From: Burkholderiales bacterium
Lineage (GTDB): Bacteria > Pseudomonadota > Gammaproteobacteria > Burkholderiales > Casimicrobiaceae
Length of the DNA: 51,444 bases
Assembly: GCA_020847675.1 (NCBI GenBank)
Contig: JADLBN010000286.1
Coordinates: forward strand, 1-51,444
Direction of reading: 5' to 3'
Shown: positions 5,050 to 17,271 of the stretch, piece by piece
How positions within the stretch are numbered: position 1 is the stretch's first letter
Layout of the letters: every line of letters starts with the position of its first letter
Program-made: the position numbers and the translations under genes
Notes under the pieces: generated by a model
Seen by the model: the letters and a program-made list of their open reading frames with translations, nothing else
Databases searched by the model: none
What the model was told of the DNA's origin: nothing

Positions 5050-5736
5050 GTGACCCTTCAGCGCCTGCGCAGAACCGAGCCGCGCCCGTCCGAAGGTGCG
5101 GCGAGCATCGTGCTGCTCAACAAGCCGTTCGGCGTCCTGTGCCAGTTCACCTCGCCCGACGGTCGGCCGACGCTCGCCGGCCTCCTCGCCCGACCCGGCC
5201 TCTACCCGGCCGGCCGGCTGGACGCCGACAGCGAAGGATTGGTCGTGCTGACCGGGGACGGCGCCTTGCAGGCCCGGATCGCCCACCCCCGGCACAAGCT
5301 CGAGAAGATCTACTGGGCGCAGGTCGAAGGCGACGCCGGCGACGAGGCGATCGAAGCGCTAGGGCGCGGCGTCACGCTCCGGGATGGCCCGGCGCGCCCG
5401 GCCGGCGTGCGTCGTATCGAGGCGCCCGCGACGCTGTGGCCGCGCGACCCGCCGATCCGTTTTCGCGCGGCGATTCCCACGTCGTGGCTGGAAATCCGGC
5501 TGACCGAAGGCCGCAACCGCCAGGTCCGGCGGATGACCGCGGCGGTCGGCCTGCCCACGCTGCGGCTGGTGCGCGTTGCGGTGGGCCCGTGGTCGCTCGG
5601 CAGCCTCGCCCCGGGCGAGTGGCGAGAGGAGGTTCTCGACGCTCGCGTGCTATCATCCGCCGCCGTTTCGCATTCCCCGTCCCCCGCGCGCCGCTCGCCT
5701 TCGCGCGACCGGTCCCGCCGTCCACGCCCAGCATGA
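5050..5736 (+). CDS. rluE: 23S rRNA pseudouridine synthase, RluE type
   Basis: RsuA/RluE-family pseudouridine synthase that in characterised members modifies 23S rRNA. The product has the family catalytic motif AGRLDADSEGLVVLTGDG (Asp is the nucleophile), the start motif IVLLNKPFGVLCQF, and GRNRQVRRM near the end. Like RluE it lacks an N-terminal S4 domain. The GTG at 5050 was chosen because the longer frame runs into the icd promoter region; it gives 228 aa. The C-terminal 25 residues are low-complexity Ser/Pro/Arg. The stop overlaps the pcnB ATG by 4 bp, making this the first gene of a coupled operon. Confidence 0.88.
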   Translation: MTLQRLRRTEPRPSEGAASIVLLNKPFGVLCQFTSPDGRPTLAGLLARPGLYPAGRLDADSEGLVVLTGDGALQARIAHPRHKLEKIYWAQVEGDAGDEAIEALGRGVTLRDGPARPAGVRRIEAPATLWPRDPPIRFRAAIPTSWLEIRLTEGRNRQVRRMTAAVGLPTLRLVRVAVGPWSLGSLAPGEWREEVLDARVLSSAAVSHSPSPARRSPSRDRSRRPRPA

Positions 5737-7597: not shown

Positions 7598-9103
<1,506 letters not shown>

Positions 9104-9139
9104 GAGTTCGGGGGTAGCGAATTCGGGGTCAGACTCGGG

Positions 9140-9218
9140 GAAATCGGGGACAGACCCCCATTCCGGGCGCCGACGCGTTCCGCGTCGGCGCCCGGAATGG
9201 GGGTCTGTCCCCGATTTC
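9140..9218. repeat. Perfect 38-bp-arm palindrome downstream of panC
   Basis: Arms 9140-9177 and 9181-9218 are exact reverse complements around TTC. The outer part contains GGGGACAGACCCCC and its complement; the inner part is a GC-rich CGGGCGCCGACGCG stem. Just upstream is GGGGTCAGACTCGGGG, related to the GTCAGAC palindromes elsewhere. It may also act as the 3' end hairpin for the panC operon and the opposing gene, although no T-tract follows. Confidence 0.9.
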
Positions 9219-9261
9219 CTGTCCCCGATTTCCGATTTCGCCGATTTCGCGAATCCCGGTT

Positions 9262-9573
9262 TCAGGCGGCCTTCTGCGTCGCCGACACCCAGATCAGGCC
9301 TCTGCCGCGGCTCAGGTAGTAGCCGCCCTGCGGACTGATGACCACGGCGCGATGCGCCGCGGAGTCGACGAAGTATCGCCAGCCATGGCCCGGCTCGCCC
9401 TGCGCCGCGCCGTTCGCGACTTCGTTCATCGCGGTAGCGTCGGCGTTCATCGGATGGGCCTCGGCGCGCGAGTGACCGCCGTGCCCGTCGTGACGGTGGT
9501 CACCAGCAAGCGCAGGGCCGGCGGCGAGAAGCGCGAACACGCCGAGCGAGGCGAGAAGAGAGGTCGATTTCAT
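9262..9573 (-). CDS. Small His/Gly-rich secreted protein, unknown function
   Basis: A 103-aa protein with a clear Sec signal peptide (MKSTSLLASLGVFALLAAGPALA, cleavage after ALA). The mature N-terminus is rich in His, Gly and Asp (GDHRHDGHGGHSRAE), which could bind metal. A C-terminal half follows containing WRYFVDSAAHRAVVISPQGGYYLSRGRGLIWV. I do not recognise the family. Its promoter carries the same operator as yceI and the PepSY/DUF2271 operon, with a matching -10 hexamer, so it probably belongs to the two-component regulon. An AAGGAG ribosome site precedes the ATG. Confidence 0.8.
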   Translation of the reverse strand: MKSTSLLASLGVFALLAAGPALAGDHRHDGHGGHSRAEAHPMNADATAMNEVANGAAQGEPGHGWRYFVDSAAHRAVVISPQGGYYLSRGRGLIWVSATQKAA

Positions 9574-9620: not shown

Positions 9621-9678
9621 ACTGTGCGCCCGCGGCGCTGAACCGGTGCTGAACCGGCCGTTCACACGACGTTCAGGC
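9621..9678 (-). promoter_or_regulatory. Operator A and -10 box for the small secreted protein gene
   Basis: The 43-bp operator (9636-9678) contains two TGAAC half-sites 11 bp apart, then, 10 bp later, two GTTCA half-sites 11 bp apart. On the minus strand a -10-like CACAGT (9621-9626) ends 13 bp from the first half-site. The same geometry recurs at operators B and C. It lies about 60 bp upstream of the start at 9573. Confidence 0.75.
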
Positions 9679-9739
9679 AATCGTCGGAGGCGCTGCCTGC
9701 CGGACACGTCACGACAGGCAGTGCCCCCGCGACGACCGC

Positions 9740-10315
9740 CTACTGCTTGAACGCTTCGATGGTGGCCGTGATGTGCACGGTCTTCGGCATCCCCTTGTCG
9801 ACCAGGTAATTCATGCCCCACTGCGTGCGGTCGAGCACGGCCTCGAAATCGCCGCCGCAGGCCTCGGTCTTCGCCCGCTGGTTGGCGTAGCAGGTGAACT
9901 GGCGGGCCTTGAGCGTCACAGGTTGGGTGCGGCCGAGCAGCGTGAGCTGGCCGGGCACCTCGACCAGACGATCGCCCTCGAACACCAGCCGATCGGCGAC
10001 GAAGCGCATCGTCGGATGCTTCGCGGCGTCGAAGAGGTCGGGCGCGAGCAGGTGCTCGTCGAAGCCCTTCGAACCGCTGTACACGCTGCGCACGTGCACC
10101 GTCATGTCGATTGCGCCGGTGCGCGCGGCCTTGTCGAAGCTCACGCTGCCGGTCACCTCGTCGAAGCGTGCGCGGTTGATCGAGGCACCGTTGTGGTCGA
10201 TCGCGAAGGTCGCGTAGGTGTGGTCGTCGTCGATCTTGTAGACGGCGGGCTGCGCGTGGGCCGCGCCGGCGCCAAAGGCCGCAAGCGCGATCAGGGGAAC
10301 GACGGACTTGAACAT
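9740..10315 (-). CDS. YceI-family periplasmic protein
   Basis: A YceI-like beta-barrel (lipocalin-like) periplasmic protein; members bind polyisoprenoids or other amphiphiles and are often stress-induced. The 191-aa product has a signal peptide (MFKSVVPLIALAAFGAGAAHA). The mature part shows the YceI pattern: YKIDDDHTYATFAIDH, a GSVSFD strand, HPTMRFVADRL, and AVLDRTQWGMNYL near the end. The start at 10315 was chosen to begin at the signal peptide. Operator B lies about 100 bp upstream, placing it in the same predicted regulon as its neighbours. Confidence 0.92.
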   Translation of the reverse strand: MFKSVVPLIALAAFGAGAAHAQPAVYKIDDDHTYATFAIDHNGASINRARFDEVTGSVSFDKAARTGAIDMTVHVRSVYSGSKGFDEHLLAPDLFDAAKHPTMRFVADRLVFEGDRLVEVPGQLTLLGRTQPVTLKARQFTCYANQRAKTEACGGDFEAVLDRTQWGMNYLVDKGMPKTVHITATIEAFKQ

Positions 10316-10397
10316 GGCAATCCTCTCGGGCGGGGTCGCAAGGGTCGCGTTGCGCGTTGCGGGCCTGCTCGACCCGAACCGCAAGCGTCAAGTTCCC

Positions 10398-10455
10398 ACT
10401 GTCCGCCAGACGCGCTGAACCGGCGCTGAACGGCCCGTTCATCTGCCGTTCAGGC
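10398..10455 (-). promoter_or_regulatory. Operator B and -10 box for yceI
   Basis: The 43-bp operator (10413-10455) is nearly identical to operator A: TGAAC at 10416 and 10427, then GTTCA at 10437 and 10448. A minus-strand -10-like GACAGT (10398-10403) ends 13 bp from the first half-site, exactly as at A and C. This is the layout of a class II OmpR/PhoP-type activated promoter. Confidence 0.75.
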
Positions 10456-10518
10456 GTTCGGGAAGCGCCGCGCGGCGTGCAGCGGACCGAGCCGGCGCGA
10501 TCGGCGAACCCTCGCGGC

Positions 10519-11502
10519 TCAGGCAACCGCAGCGGGCATCGGAGCGGCGAAGCGCCCGACCCCCGTCTCCACCAGCGCGCCGTCGCGCCGCACGAGCCAC
10601 AGCGCTTCGAGTCCGAGACGCTGCGCCAGCGGCACGCCTTCGACCGGTCCGACGACCAGGAGCGCCGTCGCCCACGCGTCGGCGCGCATGCAGCTTCCCG
10701 CGAGCACGCTGACCGAGGCCACGGCGTTGTTCACCGGCAGCGCGCGGCGCGCATCCATCGTGTGGGCGAGGCGCGCATCGCCCGCCTGCACGAAGCGCCG
10801 GTAGTCGCCCGAGGTGGCCACGGCAAGATCCTGCAGCTCGATCACGGCGTGCGCCGCGCGGTGCCCGGGATCGGGGCGCTCGACTGCCACCGCCCAGGGG
10901 TGACCCTCCGACCGGGAGCCGACGGCGCGCAACTCGCCATCGAGAGCGGCGAGCGCGTGCCGCACGCCGTGGCGTCGCAGTACCTCGACCATGCAGTCCA
11001 CGGCGTAACCCTTGGCGATGCCGCACAGGTCGATCGTGCGCGGCGCGTGCTTGCGCGCGCGACGCGCGTCGAGATCCAGCTCCAGACATGCGTGCGTGGG
11101 TGGGCGCGCGAGCGCGAGCGCACGGGCGGCCCGGATCGCCGCCGCGTCCGGGGCGGCGCGCGGCGCGCCGAAGCCCCAGGCATCGACCAGGTCGCCGACG
11201 CCCGCATCGAAGGCACCGCCGCTCTGCCGCCCGATCTCCAGCGCGCAGCCCAGCACCCGCAGGATCTCGTCGGGCAACTCGACCCAATCGTCCACCGCAG
11301 CGCGGTTCAGCCGGTTGAGGTCGCTTTCGGGCTTCCACGGCGACATCTGCGCGTCCGTTTGCCGCACTGCCGCAGCGAGATCGCGCTCGAGTACTGGCAA
11401 GTCCGGCGCAGCGTCGCAGGCGAGCGAGACCGACCAGCGCGTGCCCATCGCGGGCCCGTGCAGCGTGGTGAGCGCCGCGCGCTCAGAAGACGTCTTCGGC
11501 AT
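10519..11502 (-). CDS. apbE: FAD:protein FMN transferase (ApbE family)
   Basis: ApbE enzymes move FMN from FAD onto Ser/Thr of target proteins, usually extracytoplasmic redox carriers. The 327-aa product shows GPAMGTRWSVSL at the N-terminus, FDAGVGDLVDAWGFG, IDLCGIAKGYAVDCMVEVL, and the C-terminal AHTMDARR...MRADAWATAL metal/FAD site. No signal peptide or lipobox is evident, unlike many ApbE proteins, so it may be cytoplasmic or the start may be misplaced. It overlaps the 3' end of the flavoreductase gene by 20 bp and is the last gene of the PepSY-DUF2271-reductase-apbE operon. The DUF2271 protein in the same operon has a plausible acceptor motif. Confidence 0.93.
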   Translation of the reverse strand: MPKTSSERAALTTLHGPAMGTRWSVSLACDAAPDLPVLERDLAAAVRQTDAQMSPWKPESDLNRLNRAAVDDWVELPDEILRVLGCALEIGRQSGGAFDAGVGDLVDAWGFGAPRAAPDAAAIRAARALALARPPTHACLELDLDARRARKHAPRTIDLCGIAKGYAVDCMVEVLRRHGVRHALAALDGELRAVGSRSEGHPWAVAVERPDPGHRAAHAVIELQDLAVATSGDYRRFVQAGDARLAHTMDARRALPVNNAVASVSVLAGSCMRADAWATALLVVGPVEGVPLAQRLGLEALWLVRRDGALVETGVGRFAAPMPAAVA

Positions 11503-13699
11503 ACCGCTCCCGAGCCTTCAGTTCACGCACGCTGAGTCCGATCGGCGCGAGCACGGCGTCCAGCGTCTCGGCCACGCCACGCGCCATCGCGTGGCTGCCG
11601 CACACGCGCACGATCGCGCCGCGCGCGAGGAGTTCGCGCAGGTGCGCGGCCTGCCGGCGCAGCGTGTCCTGCACGTAGCCGCCGCCCCCCGGCGTGCGCG
11701 AGAACACCGTCTGCACGCTGGCAAGCCGTCCCTGCTCGCGCCAGCGCTCGATGTCCTCGCCGAAGTAGTAGTCCTGCGCCGGGTCGCGACCTCCGAAGAA
11801 CAGGTGCATCGGCGTGCGCCGGTGGTTGCGCCGGATGAAACCGGCCAGCGGGGCCACGCCGGTGCCCGCGCCGACGAGCACCACGCTTTGCCGCGTGCGA
11901 GGCAGCGCGAAGGCGGGATTGGGACGAATGAAGGCAGCGACGCGCTCGCCCGGCGCGAGGCCGAGCAGGTGCGTCGAGCACAGGCCGCCCGGGATCCGGC
12001 GCACGCAGATCTCGACGAAGCCGTCTTCGGTCGCCGACGCGAGCGAGTAGAAGCGCGGCACGTTCGTGCCCGGAGGCACGATGCCCAGGAGGTCGCCCGC
12101 GGCGAACGAAGACAGGCCCTGTCCGCGCCAGCGCGCGAGCACGCCCTGCTCGGGCCAGGTGAAGCACAGGATCGCAGCAGGCTCTCCTGCGCCGCCGGGG
12201 TAGTCGCGGCGCGAGGCGAGCGTGAGTTCGACGGTCGGCGGCAGGTGCGGCACGTGACTCAGCGTGAGCGGTTCGCCAAGCGAAGCCGCCAGCGCTTCGC
12301 CCCAGCGCGCGAACTCCTGCGCGGACTGCTGGTGGATGCACTCGAGCGGCAGCAGCATCGGCCAGCCGCGCGCGCGCAGCGTCTCGTCGAGGGCGTGCGC
12401 GTAGGCGCAGAACGCCGGAAACTGGCGGTCGCCGAAGCCCAGCACGGCCACCCGCGCGCGGCCGGCATCCAACGCGGCGATGCGCTTGAGCGCGTCGCGC
12501 GCGTGCGCCGGCGCCTGACCTTCGCCGTACGTCGCGGCGAGTACGAATACGTGGCGCGTCGCGGGCGTGGTCCGGAAGCGTTCGAGCGGCGCGCTGTGCA
12601 CGCGGTGGCCGCCCAGCACCAGTGCATCGTGCAGCGTCTGCGCGAAGCCCCGGGTGCTGCCGCCTTCGCTCGCGACGAAGATCAGAGCGTCGGCCTGGTC
12701 CGGCGTGCTGTTCCCGCCGATGCGCGGCACGAACCGGCGCGCCTGCCACCAGACGACGATGCCCGACAGCCAGAACAGCACGACGCTCGCCCCCATCAGG
12801 CCCAGCGCCACAGCCCACGGCCACGCGCCATCACCGGTGTGCAGCACGAGCGCCCAGTCGTTGACGCGCTGCCCGAGGCTCGCGTCCTGCCAGGCGAGCA
12901 TCCGGCCCGAATAGCGGTCGACCGAGCCGGTGCCCTGCCCTGTGACGAGCGTCCAGGTGTCTTCGGGGTCGGCAGGGTCGGGGAAGCCCAGCCGGCGCAG
13001 GTCGGACACGGGCAACTGCTGCAGCGGATCGAGTCGCGCCGCGGGCAGCGCCTGCCGGTCCGGGTCCGCGGGCACCACCGACACGACGTCGGGTTCGCCG
13101 GAAGCGTCCAGCGGCACGAATTCGAGCGTCGCGGCGCTCAGAACGAGCGCGCTGATCGAGCTCACGAGAAGCAGCGGCAGCAGCACCCGGCCGGTGATCG
13201 CGTGCACGCGCTGCGCAGGCGAGCCGCGCACCCTGCCGCCGAGTTGCCGCCAGCCACCCATGCGGCGCAGGAGCAGCACGAGGCCCGAGAACGACAGCAA
13301 CGCCATCGCCAACGCCGCGCCTGCGGCGGCCCAGCGTCCGGCGTCGCCCGCGAGGAACGAACGGTGCAGGTTCTTCACCCAGCGCGGCGACACCGACGGC
13401 CGGTAGGCGCCCAGCACGCGGCCGTCGGACGCGTCGACGTAGGATGCGAGCGCGCGTTCGCCGTCGAAGCCGAAGACGACCAACGCGCCCGAGGGCAGAC
13501 GGCGGATCTCCTGCGCGCCGGGCACGCTCGCCTGCACGCGCTCGACCAGCGCAGCCACGCTCGACGCGGGTGCGGGCGCCGCCGCGTGCCACGCATCGAC
13601 GAGCGGGTCGAGCGCGAGCAGTGCACCGGTGAGTCCCAGCACCAGCGCGAGCGTGCCGGCGACGAGCCCCAGCCAGCGGTGCAGTTGCCTGAAGCCCAC
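11483..13699 (-). CDS. PepSY-TM / flavodoxin / FAD reductase fusion (transmembrane flavoreductase)
   Basis: A 738-aa fusion. Residues about 1-330 form a PepSY-associated membrane module: TM near 10-32, a periplasmic PepSY segment with GRVLGAYRPSVSPRWVKNLHRSF, then three further TMs. Residues about 335-480 are a flavodoxin-like FMN domain (ALIFVASEGGSTRGFAQTL). Residues about 500-738 are a CysJ/P450-reductase-like FAD and NAD(P) module (RFYSLASATEDGF, GTGVAPLAGFIRR, VRVCGSHAMARGVAETLD). It should carry electrons from cytoplasmic NAD(P)H through FAD and FMN into or across the membrane. It starts 9 bp after the DUF2271 gene and overlaps apbE, so the likely periplasmic acceptor is a neighbour product. 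Confidence 0.9.
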   Translation of the reverse strand: MGFRQLHRWLGLVAGTLALVLGLTGALLALDPLVDAWHAAAPAPASSVAALVERVQASVPGAQEIRRLPSGALVVFGFDGERALASYVDASDGRVLGAYRPSVSPRWVKNLHRSFLAGDAGRWAAAGAALAMALLSFSGLVLLLRRMGGWRQLGGRVRGSPAQRVHAITGRVLLPLLLVSSISALVLSAATLEFVPLDASGEPDVVSVVPADPDRQALPAARLDPLQQLPVSDLRRLGFPDPADPEDTWTLVTGQGTGSVDRYSGRMLAWQDASLGQRVNDWALVLHTGDGAWPWAVALGLMGASVVLFWLSGIVVWWQARRFVPRIGGNSTPDQADALIFVASEGGSTRGFAQTLHDALVLGGHRVHSAPLERFRTTPATRHVFVLAATYGEGQAPAHARDALKRIAALDAGRARVAVLGFGDRQFPAFCAYAHALDETLRARGWPMLLPLECIHQQSAQEFARWGEALAASLGEPLTLSHVPHLPPTVELTLASRRDYPGGAGEPAAILCFTWPEQGVLARWRGQGLSSFAAGDLLGIVPPGTNVPRFYSLASATEDGFVEICVRRIPGGLCSTHLLGLAPGERVAAFIRPNPAFALPRTRQSVVLVGAGTGVAPLAGFIRRNHRRTPMHLFFGGRDPAQDYYFGEDIERWREQGRLASVQTVFSRTPGGGGYVQDTLRRQAAHLRELLARGAIVRVCGSHAMARGVAETLDAVLAPIGLSVRELKARERYAEDVF

Positions 13700-13708
13700 G
13701 CGCGTCCC

Positions 13709-14191
13709 CTACGGCAACTGGAAGGTCAGCGACTGGACGTACTGCCTGCCGGACTGCGGCTTGCCGGCAGCCGCGGTGGTCAGCGGCACGCGCACTTCCG
13801 ACGGGCTGTCGCGGAACTTCTCGACCGCGGCGTCGACGCGGATCTCGTAGCCCGCGTCGATCAGGGCGTCGGCGAGATCCGCCGTGACCTTGAGCGTGCG
13901 GCCGGCGCCGACGCTCGCGCCGGTCACGCCCGCGAGGCGATTGCCGTCGCCGGTGGACAACCGGTTCCAGTCGGACAGATTCCGGTAGTACTTGGCCTTG
14001 CCGCCGGCGACCCACAGCGTGCCCGCGTAGGCGCCCTTCGCGTCGGTCAGGTACACGGCGAGATAGGCGCCGTCGCCGCCGTAATCCTTGAGTTGGACGG
14101 CGAGCGACACCGGGCGGGCGAGCACGGCCGAGGGAAGCGCCAGCGCGCAGGCGGCCGCGCCGCCGATCAGGACTTTCGACTTGATGGACAT
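13709..14191 (-). CDS. Secreted DUF2271-domain protein with TGAS flavinylation-like motif
   Basis: A 160-aa protein with a signal peptide (MSIKSKVLIGGAAACALALPSAVLA) and a DUF2271-type domain (YLAVYLTDAKGAYAGTLWVAG...YYRNLSDW). Residues 88-98 read GVTGASVGAGR; T90-G-A-S93 resembles the SGAT/TGAS acceptor motif that ApbE flavinylates in NqrC-type proteins. An ApbE is encoded in the same operon, so this may be its target. That is inference, and the preceding Asp is further away than in the classical motif. The start at 14191 is preceded by GAGGAAG, a good ribosome site; the longer open frame overlaps the upstream gene. Confidence 0.85.
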   Translation of the reverse strand: MSIKSKVLIGGAAACALALPSAVLARPVSLAVQLKDYGGDGAYLAVYLTDAKGAYAGTLWVAGGKAKYYRNLSDWNRLSTGDGNRLAGVTGASVGAGRTLKVTADLADALIDAGYEIRVDAAVEKFRDSPSEVRVPLTTAAAGKPQSGRQYVQSLTFQLP

Positions 14192-14210
14192 GGAATCTTC
14201 CTCGTGGGCT

Positions 14211-14630
14211 CTACTCGACCTGGCCGCGCGGGGCGGTGCCGGGGGTGAACAGCGGAGCGGGCGCGGTGGCGCCTTGCGACGCGCGCGGCGAGGATCCGCC
14301 GGTTTGCCCCTCACGACCGCGCTCGCGCCCGTGATTCCGCTCACGATCGCGGTCGCGATGCCCGAACTTCACGACCTGCAGCGTCTCGGGGTCGACCTTC
14401 GCCTTGAACGCGCGTCCGTCCGCATCCCGGCCGCGGATTTCGTAGCAGCCGTCGTCGATCTTCAGGCGTTCGACCTGCCAGCCGCGCTGGGCCGCCATCG
14501 TGCGCACGGCGTCGCGCGGCTTCCAGCGCTCCACGGGCACCGCGCAGTCGTCGTCGGCCAGCGCGGGAGTGGCGACGAGGGCAAGGGACAGCGCCAGCAA
14601 GCCGTGGCGCAGGCGGGCAGCGAGGTTCAT
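14211..14630 (-). CDS. Secreted PepSY-domain protein
   Basis: A 139-aa protein with a signal peptide (ending TPALA) followed by one PepSY-like domain (about 35-95: KPRDAVRTMAAQRGWQVERLKIDDGCYEIRG, then VDPETLQVV). The C-terminal tail of about 45 residues is disordered and rich in Arg, Gly, Pro and Ala. PepSY domains are periplasmic regulatory or metal/haem-associated modules. It is the first gene of the operon running to apbE, with an AAGGAG ribosome site. A 172-bp leader follows the predicted promoter at operator C. Confidence 0.85.
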   Translation of the reverse strand: MNLAARLRHGLLALSLALVATPALADDDCAVPVERWKPRDAVRTMAAQRGWQVERLKIDDGCYEIRGRDADGRAFKAKVDPETLQVVKFGHRDRDRERNHGRERGREGQTGGSSPRASQGATAPAPLFTPGTAPRGQVE

Positions 14631-14809
14631 GACGTGGCTCCTTTCGGGGGGTTCAAGTCAACGCAGCGCGGACGCTTCCGGATGCGGCCGGCGCGCCCTG
14701 GCCGGTTCAGCGTTCCAGCACGGACACGGAGTCGCCCGATCGGATGTCCGGGGCCTCGGGTCTTCAGCGGATGCGTCGGGCATGGCGCGATTCGTTCCTT
14801 TCGGCGAGC

Positions 14810-14868
14810 ATTGTGGAAACGCCGGGTTGAACGCAGCCTGAAGGCCGCGTTCAGCCCCCGTTCATCGC
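14810..14868 (-). promoter_or_regulatory. Operator C: divergent control region of the PepSY-redox operon and the two-component operon
   Basis: Half-sites TGAAC (14828) and TGAAG (14839) are followed by GTTCA at 14849 and 14860, the same 11-10-11 geometry as operators A and B. A minus-strand CACAAT (14810-14815) ends 13 bp from the first half-site, predicting activation of the 14630-to-10519 operon. The other edge is only about 22 bp from the ATG of the PepSY-regulator-kinase operon, so that operon may be autoregulated from the same site. Confidence 0.75.
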
Positions 14869-14889
14869 CGCGCGCATACCTTCCCGCCC

Positions 14890-15252
14890 ATGAACACGCG
14901 CAACCTGCTTCGTCGCGGTCGCCCCGCCCTGCTGGGCCTTGCGTTGTTCGCGCTCGCGGCCAGTCCGCTCCTGGGCGCGCAGGAACACGACCACGACCGC
15001 GCGCGCCGGGCGCTCGAGCAAGGCGAGGTGCTGCCGCTGCGTACCGTGCTCGACAAGGTGGAGCGCGACTACGGCGGCAAGGTGCTGAAGATCGAGTTCG
15101 AGCGCGACGACGGGCGCTTCGTCTACGAGATCCGCCTGTTGCAGAACGACGGCCGCATGGCCAAACTCAAGATCGACGCGGTCGACGGCCGCGTGCTCGA
15201 AGTCCAGCGCAGGGAACACGGAAGCAGGAGCGATGCGCATTCTCGTCGTTGA
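14890..15252 (+). CDS. Secreted PepSY-domain protein preceding the two-component genes
   Basis: A 120-aa protein with an N-terminal signal sequence (about residues 1-30, ending LLGAQ) and a PepSY domain (ARRALEQGEVLPLRTVLDKVERDYGGKVLKIEF...FVYEIRLLQNDG...LKIDAVDGRVLEV). Small PepSY proteins are frequently co-transcribed with QseBC/PhoPQ-like pairs and may modulate the sensor in the periplasm. The gene overlaps the regulator start by 20 bp. It is divergent from the operon whose first product is also a PepSY protein. Confidence 0.88.
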   Translation: MNTRNLLRRGRPALLGLALFALAASPLLGAQEHDHDRARRALEQGEVLPLRTVLDKVERDYGGKVLKIEFERDDGRFVYEIRLLQNDGRMAKLKIDAVDGRVLEVQRREHGSRSDAHSRR

Positions 15253-15904
15253 GGACGAACCCGCGCTCTGCGCGCAGCTGGTGGAGGCGATCTCCGCGGC
15301 AGGCCACACGGTGGAGAGCGCCGGGGACGGCGTCTCCGGCCACTACCTGGGAGAAGCGGAGGACTTCGACGCCGTGGTGCTGGACCTCGGGCTGCCCAGG
15401 CTCGACGGCCTGTCGGTGCTGCGCCGCTGGCGCGGGGCCGGGCGCAACATGCCGGTGCTGATCCTCACTGCGCGCAGCGCCTGGCACGAGAAGGTGGCGG
15501 GCATCGACGCGGGCGCCGACGACTACCTCGCCAAGCCGTTCCACATGGAGGAACTGCTCGCGCGCCTGCGGGCGCTGCTGCGCCGCGTGGGCGAGCACGC
15601 CAGCGCCGAGTGGCGCTGCGGCCCGATCGTGCTCGACACGCGCCAGGCGCGCGTGCAGGTCGACGGCCGGCCGCTGCAGCTCACGAGCCACGAGTTCAAG
15701 CTGCTGTCGCTCCTGATGCAGCGCAAGGGCGAAGTGCTGTCGCGCACCGAGCTGTCCGAGCACATCTACGCCTACGACAGCGACCGCGACTCCAACACCA
15801 TCGAGGTCTTCGTCGGGCGCCTGCGCAGGAAGCTGCCGCCGGGCAGCATCGAAACGGTGCGCGGCATGGGCTACCGGCTCGTGGAAGCGGGCGCCGGCGC
15901 TTGA
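15233..15904 (+). CDS. OmpR/PhoB-family response regulator
   Basis: A 223-aa two-domain regulator. The receiver domain (1-115) has the acidic pocket VVEDE, phospho-acceptor D51 in VVLDLGLPRLDG, LILTAR, and KPF. The winged-helix domain (about 125-220) has LTSHEFKLLSLLMQRKGEVLSR and the DNA-contact region DSNTIEVFVGRLRRKL. It resembles QseB/PhoP-type regulators. It sits between a PepSY gene and its cognate kinase with overlaps on both sides. The three tandem operators nearby have the 11-bp half-site period expected of this family, so it is the best candidate to bind them. Confidence 0.95.
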   Translation: MRILVVEDEPALCAQLVEAISAAGHTVESAGDGVSGHYLGEAEDFDAVVLDLGLPRLDGLSVLRRWRGAGRNMPVLILTARSAWHEKVAGIDAGADDYLAKPFHMEELLARLRALLRRVGEHASAEWRCGPIVLDTRQARVQVDGRPLQLTSHEFKLLSLLMQRKGEVLSRTELSEHIYAYDSDRDSNTIEVFVGRLRRKLPPGSIETVRGMGYRLVEAGAGA

Positions 15905-17271
15905 ACGGCGGATCGCTGCGACTGCGGCTCCTCGCAGGCACGCTCGCCTGGGTGCTGGCCGTCATCGCGCTCGCCGGCTGGGGTCTGCGCGCGCTGTTCC
16001 AGGAACACATCACGCTCCAGCTGCAATCGCAGCTCGTCCTGCAGCTCGACCACCTGAGCGCCGCGGTCGACTGGAAGAGCGGCGTGGGTGTCGCGATCGG
16101 TTCCGCGCCCGCCGACCCGAGACTCGACGAGCCGCTGTCGGGCCTGTACTGGCAGGTCGACCGGCTGGGCGCCGCACCGGCGGCGGGCATCGCGCGCTCG
16201 CGCTCGCTGTGGGACCAGGTGCTCGCGCTGCCGCCGCCTCCGGTGACCTACCCTGCTGACGGTTACCGCGTGCTGGACCTGCACGATGCGCAGGGCCGCG
16301 CGCTCAAGGCCGTGGCGCGCGTCGTGCAGTTGCCCGAGGAGGACGCGCCGCCGCTGCGGCTGGTGGTGGCGGGCGACCCGGCGCTCCTGGCCGAGCCGTT
16401 GCAGCGCTTCACCCGCCTCCTGCTGATCGCACTGGGCATCCTGGCGGCCGGCCTGGCGGTGGCCGTGGTGGTGCAGCTGCATCTCACGCTTCGGCCGCTC
16501 GAGCGCCTTCGCGCGCACCTGGCTGCCGTGCGCGGCGGCACCGCCGCACGGCTCGAAGGGCGCTTCCCGCAGGAGTTGCAGCCGCTGGTCCACGAGTTCA
16601 ACCACGTGCTGCAGGAGAACGCCGACATGGTGCAGCGCGCCCGAACCCAGGCCGGCAACCTGGCGCACGCGGTGCACACGCCGCTGTCGATCCTCGCCAA
16701 CGCCGCGGCGCAGGACGGAAGCCCGCTGGCGCAACTCGTCACCGAACAGGTGGCGCGCGCCCGCCGGCAGGTCGACTACCACCTCGCCCGTGCGCGCGCA
16801 GCCGCCGCGGTTCGTGCCACCGGACTCGCGACCCCGGTGCTGCCGCCGCTTCGCGCCCTGGTGCGCACGATGCAGCGGCTGCACTCGGCCCGCGGCCTGT
16901 CGTTCGAAATCGCCGCCGGCGCGACGGACACGGCCTTCCGCGGCGAGGAGCAGGACCTCTACGAACTCATGGGCAACCTGATCGACAATGCCGGCAAGTG
17001 GGCGCGCACGCGCGTGCTGGTCGACGTGAGGCAGCAGGGCGACGAACTGCGCATCACCGTCGACGACGACGGCCCCGGCATCCCCGCCGAAGAGCGCGAG
17101 CGCATGTTCGAGCGCGGCGTGCAGCTCGACGAAGAGCGTCCCGGATCGGGACTGGGGCTCGACATCGTGCGCGGCCTCGCCCAGACCTACGGCGGCAGCG
17201 TGAGGGCGGAAGCGTCACCGCTCGGCGGCGCGCGCCTCGAATTGCGGCTGCCCGCGGCCGCTGAAGCATGA
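15901..17271 (+). CDS. Sensor histidine kinase (PhoQ/QseC-like)
   Basis: A 456-aa membrane sensor kinase. TM1 is at about 10-30, followed by a periplasmic domain (about 31-170) and TM2 at about 171-193. The HisKA H-box is NLAHAVHTPL with H256 as likely phospho-acceptor. The ATPase domain has N box GNLIDNAGKWA, G1 DDDGPGIP and G2 GSGLGLDIV. The LAHAVHTPL form is typical of PhoQ-like kinases. The start is TTG, overlapping the regulator stop as TTGA. The signal is unknown; the regulon content suggests envelope redox or cation stress. Confidence 0.93.
   Translation: MNGGSLRLRLLAGTLAWVLAVIALAGWGLRALFQEHITLQLQSQLVLQLDHLSAAVDWKSGVGVAIGSAPADPRLDEPLSGLYWQVDRLGAAPAAGIARSRSLWDQVLALPPPPVTYPADGYRVLDLHDAQGRALKAVARVVQLPEEDAPPLRLVVAGDPALLAEPLQRFTRLLLIALGILAAGLAVAVVVQLHLTLRPLERLRAHLAAVRGGTAARLEGRFPQELQPLVHEFNHVLQENADMVQRARTQAGNLAHAVHTPLSILANAAAQDGSPLAQLVTEQVARARRQVDYHLARARAAAAVRATGLATPVLPPLRALVRTMQRLHSARGLSFEIAAGATDTAFRGEEQDLYELMGNLIDNAGKWARTRVLVDVRQQGDELRITVDDDGPGIPAEERERMFERGVQLDEERPGSGLGLDIVRGLAQTYGGSVRAEASPLGGARLELRLPAAAEA

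Follow-up and report, generated by a model that had tools for sequence, protein, structure and literature searches.

Back-to-back PhoP-type boxes as candidate operators of an SK1-type two-component system in a Burkholderiales genome

Three elements with the same arrangement of four short half-sites lie at 9639..9675, 10416..10452 and 14828..14864 (operators 1, 2 and 3 below) of a 51,444-nucleotide stretch of DNA from a Burkholderiales bacterium (contig JADLBN010000286.1 of assembly GCA_020847675.1, positions 1 to 51,444; this whole stretch is referred to as the window). We consider it highly probable that they are operators of the OmpR-family response regulator encoded at 15233..15904 (plus strand). 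They would consist of paired PhoP-type boxes and, judging from their sequence and placement, would act by class II activation.

Described systems closest to the locus

The closest described counterparts of these boxes belong to PhoP. The consensus of Pseudomonas aeruginosa PhoP is GTTCAGNNNNNRTTCAG (PMC3156716), and a second account gives the Pseudomonas PhoP box as CGTTCAGNNNNNRTTCAG, with G/ATTCAG as the motif from chromatin immunoprecipitation sequencing (PMC7916210). In Salmonella, promoters of Architecture I have one box, which lies 12 nucleotides (nt) from the -10 element, overlaps the -35 element and activates in the class II manner, and those of Architecture II add a second box, which in ybjX is reversed and lies upstream (PMC3335776). 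At ybjX, expression falls more than 8-fold, but is not lost, when the second box is mutated, and it is lost altogether when the proximal box is mutated (PMC3335776).

The operators of the window share with the P. aeruginosa PhoP box the half-site sequence, the period of 11 base pairs (bp) and the trailing G, and the minus-strand boxes of operators 1 and 2 match every specified base of its consensus. That published consensus is a single box, whereas here two boxes stand back to back across a 5-bp gap. A direct-orientation box 12 nt from the -10 is common to Salmonella Architecture I and to our operators, but the Salmonella half-site is GTTTA (GTTCA here) and the second box of ybjX is 30 nt away rather than across a 5-bp gap. 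The divergent Salmonella genes pagC/pagD are said to differ in architecture and are probably separately activated (PMC3335776). The direct repeat at an 11-bp period and the direct-orientation box at ~12 nt from the -10 are both found in the window, as in PhoP-type class II promoters, and they support the view, put forward in a preliminary description of this DNA, that activation would be of the class II PhoP/OmpR type. Because the box is known from Pseudomonas PhoP and the distance from Salmonella PhoP, we do not regard the present case as a new kind of regulon.

Equating the regulator with PhoP proper was rejected. It scored 185.8 bits against the NCBIfam PhoP model NF008078 (cut-off 336) and higher against the models for PmrA (209), QseB (198), TctD (191) and the CztR/SilR/CopR subfamily (189), all below their cut-offs; PmrA gave the best NCBIfam score, and none of the 25 families shown reached its cut-off. 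Among Escherichia coli proteins, the regulator was 45% identical to QseB, 44% to BasR and 41% to PhoP, and its recognition-helix region appeared PhoP-like by eye. The sensor kinase that follows (15901..17271, plus strand) is PhoQ-like, with 158 bits against the NCBIfam PhoQ model NF008077, the best of 73 families (next 101) and below the cut-off of 497; against E. coli it matched PhoQ (2e-43) ahead of QseC (8e-12) and BasS (9e-11). Its frame overlaps the regulator stop, and its start codon is apparently TTG.

The kinase contains both SGLYWQ and RSRSLWD and is of the SK1 type by its sensor-domain motifs. SK1 kinases are marked by SGxYWQ and RSRSLWD according to Meyer et al. 2010 (PMC2909971), who linked a trio of Orf1, response regulator and SK1 to SHP operons and described a possible divergent promoter in Rhodospirillum. 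With these operons our locus shares the order small protein, response regulator, sensor kinase, as well as the motifs, a divergent redox operon and the suggested divergent promoter. SHP operons carry cytochromes, whereas the divergent operon here is flavin-based (DUF2271/ApbE). The first gene of the regulator operon encodes a PepSY protein (14890..15252, plus strand; N terminus signal-like by eye), which sits at the position of Orf1 of Meyer et al. The parts of the SHP-operon paper covered here give no operator (PMC2909971), and, going by its sequence, the double operator may be the divergent promoter suggested for SHP operons.

FeuN-FeuP-FeuQ of Sinorhizobium likewise combines a periplasmic protein, a regulator and a kinase, and FeuN is described as an inhibitor that binds FeuQ (PMC12486126). 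The redox operon of the window is a member of the PepSY-like flavinylation clusters, with PepSY_TM, DUF2271 and ApbE together with the TGAS motif (PMC8238504). Some of these clusters are linked to Fur and iron, and PhoP-type control is unmentioned in the parts of that paper covered (PMC8238504). Shewanella SsoR (PMC12442407) was considered as a counterpart and set aside as a different kind of system.

Operator and promoter geometry in the window

The three operators, which as elements have no strand, follow the pattern TGAAC-N6-TGAAC-N5-GTTCA-N6-GTTCA with 0, 0 and 1 mismatches at 9639, 10416 and 14828, confirming the common geometry that had been claimed for these positions. Operators 1 and 2 have four perfect half-sites each, and operator 3 lies between divergent operons. 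The minus-strand boxes GTTCAGCACCGGTTCAG of operator 1 and GTTCAGCGCCGGTTCAG of operator 2 face a -10-like hexamer. The single mismatch of operator 3 is in its second half-site (14839-14843), which reads TGAAG rather than TGAAC; TGAAG is also found in 22 of the 32 double operators upstream of orthologous regulators described below.

Chance similarity was ruled out by shuffles, a genome scan and spacing controls. The operator pattern was absent from 100 dinucleotide shuffles of the window (GC content 70%). A whole-genome scan for the two-dimer motif, as the preliminary description had suggested, was run on the draft genome (3,761,856 bases, 326 contigs) with up to three mismatches allowed, and it returned these three places only; a reversed control pattern gave no matches in the same genome at that tolerance. 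When 63 spacing combinations were searched in the window (inner gap 3-9, middle gap 2-10, up to three mismatches), matches occurred at 6/5 only and were the known three. Calculated from the base composition of the window only, a genome of such size would be expected to hold ~1e-7 exact and ~8e-6 one-mismatch sites.

The similarity of the sites could also stem from recent duplication of one promoter with no shared regulation behind it, and operators 1 and 2, which are 0.8 kb apart, do have GCGCTGAACCGGYGCTGAAC in common. The flanks of the three sites, compared in six left/right local alignments, did not align beyond the level of shuffled sequence (the observed score was equalled or exceeded by 58 to 191 of 200 shuffles), and the sites lie on different contigs in genomes G002 and G008. 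We give duplication next to no credence.

Minus-strand -10-like hexamers lie 12 bp from each operator, namely CACAGT (9621..9626) at operator 1, GACAGT (10398..10403) at operator 2 and CACAAT (14810..14815) at operator 3, the last being assigned to the PepSY_2-DUF2271 operon. These hexamers and the constancy of their distance had been noted previously and hold; the distance of 13 bp then given does not, and is replaced by the 12 bp measured here. An additional hexamer that the earlier list did not contain, TACCTT (14877..14882, plus strand), lies beyond operator 3, 12 bp from its last half-site, is followed after 7 nt by the ATG at 14890, and is assigned to the regulator operon. Among offsets of 0-40, 12 alone places a NANNNT hexamer on the same side of at least two of the three sites (minus side 3/3, plus side 1/3). 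Operator 3 therefore carries a hexamer at this distance on each side and appears bidirectional. Its sequence suggests that the transcript of the regulator operon perhaps begins at or beside the ATG at 14890 and is leaderless. As a general feature a leaderless start was rejected, with the first in-frame start 4-10 nt past the hexamer position in just 32 of 80 orthologous loci.

A single box with its hexamer, searched as RTTCA-N6-RTTCA-N12-NANNNT, had three matches in the own genome, on the minus side of operators 1 and 2 and on the plus side of operator 3, and GTTCA-N6-GTTCA-N12-NANNNT gave the identical three. A larger regulon in this genome was rejected, as the single-box search returned just the same three places. 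In seven relatives a stricter pattern found one site and was too strict for use; the looser pattern found sites in five of eight genomes, the own genome included.

From this geometry we infer a mechanism in which each operator would be read as two RTTCA-N6-RTTCA boxes placed back to back at a 5-bp gap, so that the four half-sites would lie about one helical turn apart, and a phosphorylated dimer of the regulator would bind each box. The box 12 bp from the -10 would replace the -35 element and activate through class II contact. Operator 3 would drive the PepSY-regulator-kinase and PepSY_2-DUF2271-flavoreductase-ApbE operons at once, and operators 1 and 2 would act in a single direction, on the genes for a small secreted protein and for YceI; their rear box would probably be a booster. 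The regulator might instead bind the same operators and repress, the boxes covering promoters that are being shut off, much as happens at retS of P. aeruginosa, where PhoP acts as a repressor from a box that lies between the -10 and the start codon (PMC3156716). The boxes of the window are upstream of the -10 at 12 bp, which is the position of the Salmonella activator, and we judge repression unlikely.

Conservation and co-occurrence with the regulator

A search with the regulator gave at least 587 confirmed relatives, and the best 80 loci (~61-89% identity) were kept for a scan of the region 900-50 nt 5' of the regulator. This comparison of orthologous upstream regions, which the preliminary description had called for, recovered the half-site pair: an exact forward RTTCA pair with period 11 was present in 75 of the 80 loci, as against 0-6 loci for other periods between 6 and 21. 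Hexamers beginning with TA stood at offset 12 after 60 of 78 RTTCA pairs, and no other offset between 0 and 30 had more than 13. Loci with the box 5' of the orthologous regulator come from alpha-, beta- and other proteobacteria.

An inverted partner box (two mismatches of ten allowed) was found at gap 5 in 32/80 loci, 27 of them with no more than one mismatch; gaps of 0-4 and 6-14 gave none and gap 15 gave one. On the minus side of these 32 double operators, NANNNT was at offset 12 in 28, with four or fewer at each of the remaining offsets between 6 and 19. Plus-side hexamers matching TATAAT in at least four places were at offset 12 in 22/32 and in no more than eight elsewhere (offset 14). Both SK1 marks, variants allowed, were present in the kinases of 31 of the 80 loci, i.e., in 26/32 with a double operator and in 5/48 without one. 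The Rhizobiales loci of this comparison, whose regulators (61-66% identical) we take to be FeuP, mostly have one box only; Rhizobium loci typically show a single box such as ATTCATTTGCCATTCA without a partner. One locus (L072) has two double operators (2184 and 2310), 126 bp apart, upstream of one regulator, and in another (L028) the regulator operator has a second double operator ~1.1 kb away, at 5442, ahead of a gene for a small PepSY-like protein (by eye).

Site and regulator were also compared across 149 genomes (own, genus, family and order), with up to two mismatches allowed in the two-box site and E <= 1e-70 required of the regulator. The site was present in 9 genomes and the regulator in 11; 8 had both, 1 the site only, 3 the regulator only and 137 neither (Fisher 2.9e-10; 3.5e-9 without the own genome). 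In genome G117 the regulator begins 722 bp from a contig end and shows no box; the two sites of this genome are at other places, in front of a cytochrome-like gene and a PepSY_2 gene.

These counts bear on whether the operators are binding sites for a different regulator of the OmpR family encoded in the genome, their linkage to the gene at 15233-15904 being incidental. Such regulators often use direct repeats of ~11 bp, and 19 matches to the PhoQ kinase model show that the genome has several two-component systems. Set against this are the position of the box 5' of the orthologous regulator across proteobacterial classes, the co-occurrence in 149 genomes and the fact that, among 19 proteins scored of 42 first-look candidates, a single protein of the own genome matches the regulator at E <= 1e-70. 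We regard another regulator as very improbable, and the 75/80 loci and the 8/1/3/137 distribution favour the regulator at 15233-15904 as the predicted binder, as had been proposed.

Several observations weigh against the operators as we interpret them. With regard to the promoters, the minus-strand hexamers start with C (sites 1 and 3) or G (site 2) and not with T, and the rear boxes of operators 1 and 2 have no NANNNT at 12 bp. Compared with the Pseudomonas consensus, the plus-strand box of operator 3 is without the last G and its minus-strand box is without the first and the last G (PMC3156716). Within the 32 double operators, plus-side NANNNT hexamers are as frequent at offset 14 as at offset 12 (10/32 each), and the TATAAT match alone favours 12. 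Among the orthologous loci, 48/80 are without an inverted partner, and the exact RTTCA pair is absent from five, of which L031, L034 and L035 have GTTCA pairs with 1-2 mismatches and L083 and L085 show nothing convincing. Genome G084 has an operator with two mismatches in one half-site and no regulator, and its 3-kb locus yielded no relative of any window protein. Conversely, G054, G107 and G126 have the regulator and no two-box site at up to two mismatches: in G126 the regulator is preceded by an exact RTTCA pair, whose partner has three mismatches; in G107 a single exact RTTCA pair lies upstream at a distance of ~1 kb; and no such pair is upstream of the regulator of G054, which is the most distant one (50%). 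The own genome is 89% complete. Close relatives (Rhizobium, Mesorhizobium, Roseibium) make up many of the 80 loci, so that locus counts should be read as counts of related sequences and not of independent events.

Target genes and their relatives

Downstream of operator 1 is the gene for a secreted-looking protein of 103 amino acids (9262..9573, minus strand), which had no Pfam or NCBIfam match at E 0.001. This protein and four relatives have a common C-terminal GW(R/Q)YF.D..A.RAVVISP.G.YYLS.G.GL, and their N-terminal part is variable and in some cases His-rich. Between it and a gene ending at 9103 there is a perfect inverted repeat (9139-9219) with 39-nt arms (9139-9177 and 9181-9219) separated by 3 nt, and a further 15-nt arm at 9219-9233. 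Operator 2 precedes the gene for a YceI family protein (9740..10315, minus strand; Pfam YceI, 115 bits). The redox operon that diverges from operator 3 is entirely on the minus strand and begins with a PepSY_2 protein (14211..14630; N terminus signal-like by eye), followed by a DUF2271 protein with TGAS as its [S/T]GA[S/T] flavinylation motif (13709..14191), a fusion of PepSY_TM, flavodoxin and NAD/FAD reductase (11483..13699) and an ApbE flavin transferase (10519..11502).

The same kinds of gene stand behind double operators in relatives. Divergent genes were classified with Pfam for eight proteins (L005, L006, L015, L017, L018, L023, L028 and L032) and by eye for the others. An Ideonella metagenome-assembled genome (L017) repeats the window, with double operators before the small secreted protein, YceI and the regulator operon; the small secreted protein is also behind an operator in L009, L012 and L019, PepSY_2-DUF2271-reductase in L013, and a 46-amino-acid YceI match lies beside an operator near a contig end in L016. 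The targets that had been predicted (the small secreted protein, YceI, the PepSY-DUF2271-flavoreductase-ApbE operon and the regulator operon) are borne out by orthologs that carry the operator in L009, L012, L013, L017 and L019. Across the regulator operator we found cytochrome b561 (L005, L017, L019), a ferric-reductase-like protein (L018, L020), PepSY_2 proteins (L007, L008, L023-L026) and a DUF1924 cytochrome c (L004, L006, L028-L033 and others), after which L006 has a diheme cytochrome. Some divergent frames (e.g., L040, L049, L054, L072) are outside all these classes.

We regard the regulatory element as genuine and strongly conserved. The PhoP box, the 12-nt class II spacing and the SK1 system are already known as parts. 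For the fixed back-to-back pairing of the boxes in the service of one or two promoters, and for the regulon, we found no description in the titles and abstract openings of an open-licence subset of the literature. With somewhat less than even confidence, we suggest that the four half-sites act cooperatively as a single operator, which would fire two class II promoters, placed back to back, from one assembly. One conserved sensor-regulator-PepSY unit might then run interchangeable modules for electron transfer from membrane to periplasm, based on covalent flavin here (DUF2271/ApbE) and in relatives on heme (DUF1924 cytochrome, diheme cytochrome, cytochrome b561), and its signal might be the periplasmic redox or metal state rather than magnesium.

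The sequence rule, a pair of PhoP-type boxes separated by 5 bp and a -10 at a distance of 12 bp, lets the regulon of a little-studied type of kinase be read from genomes. It also suggests how the divergent promoter proposed for SHP operons in 2010 may work, and places PepSY, YceI, DUF2271/ApbE and cytochrome b561/SHP-type genes under what would be one switch.

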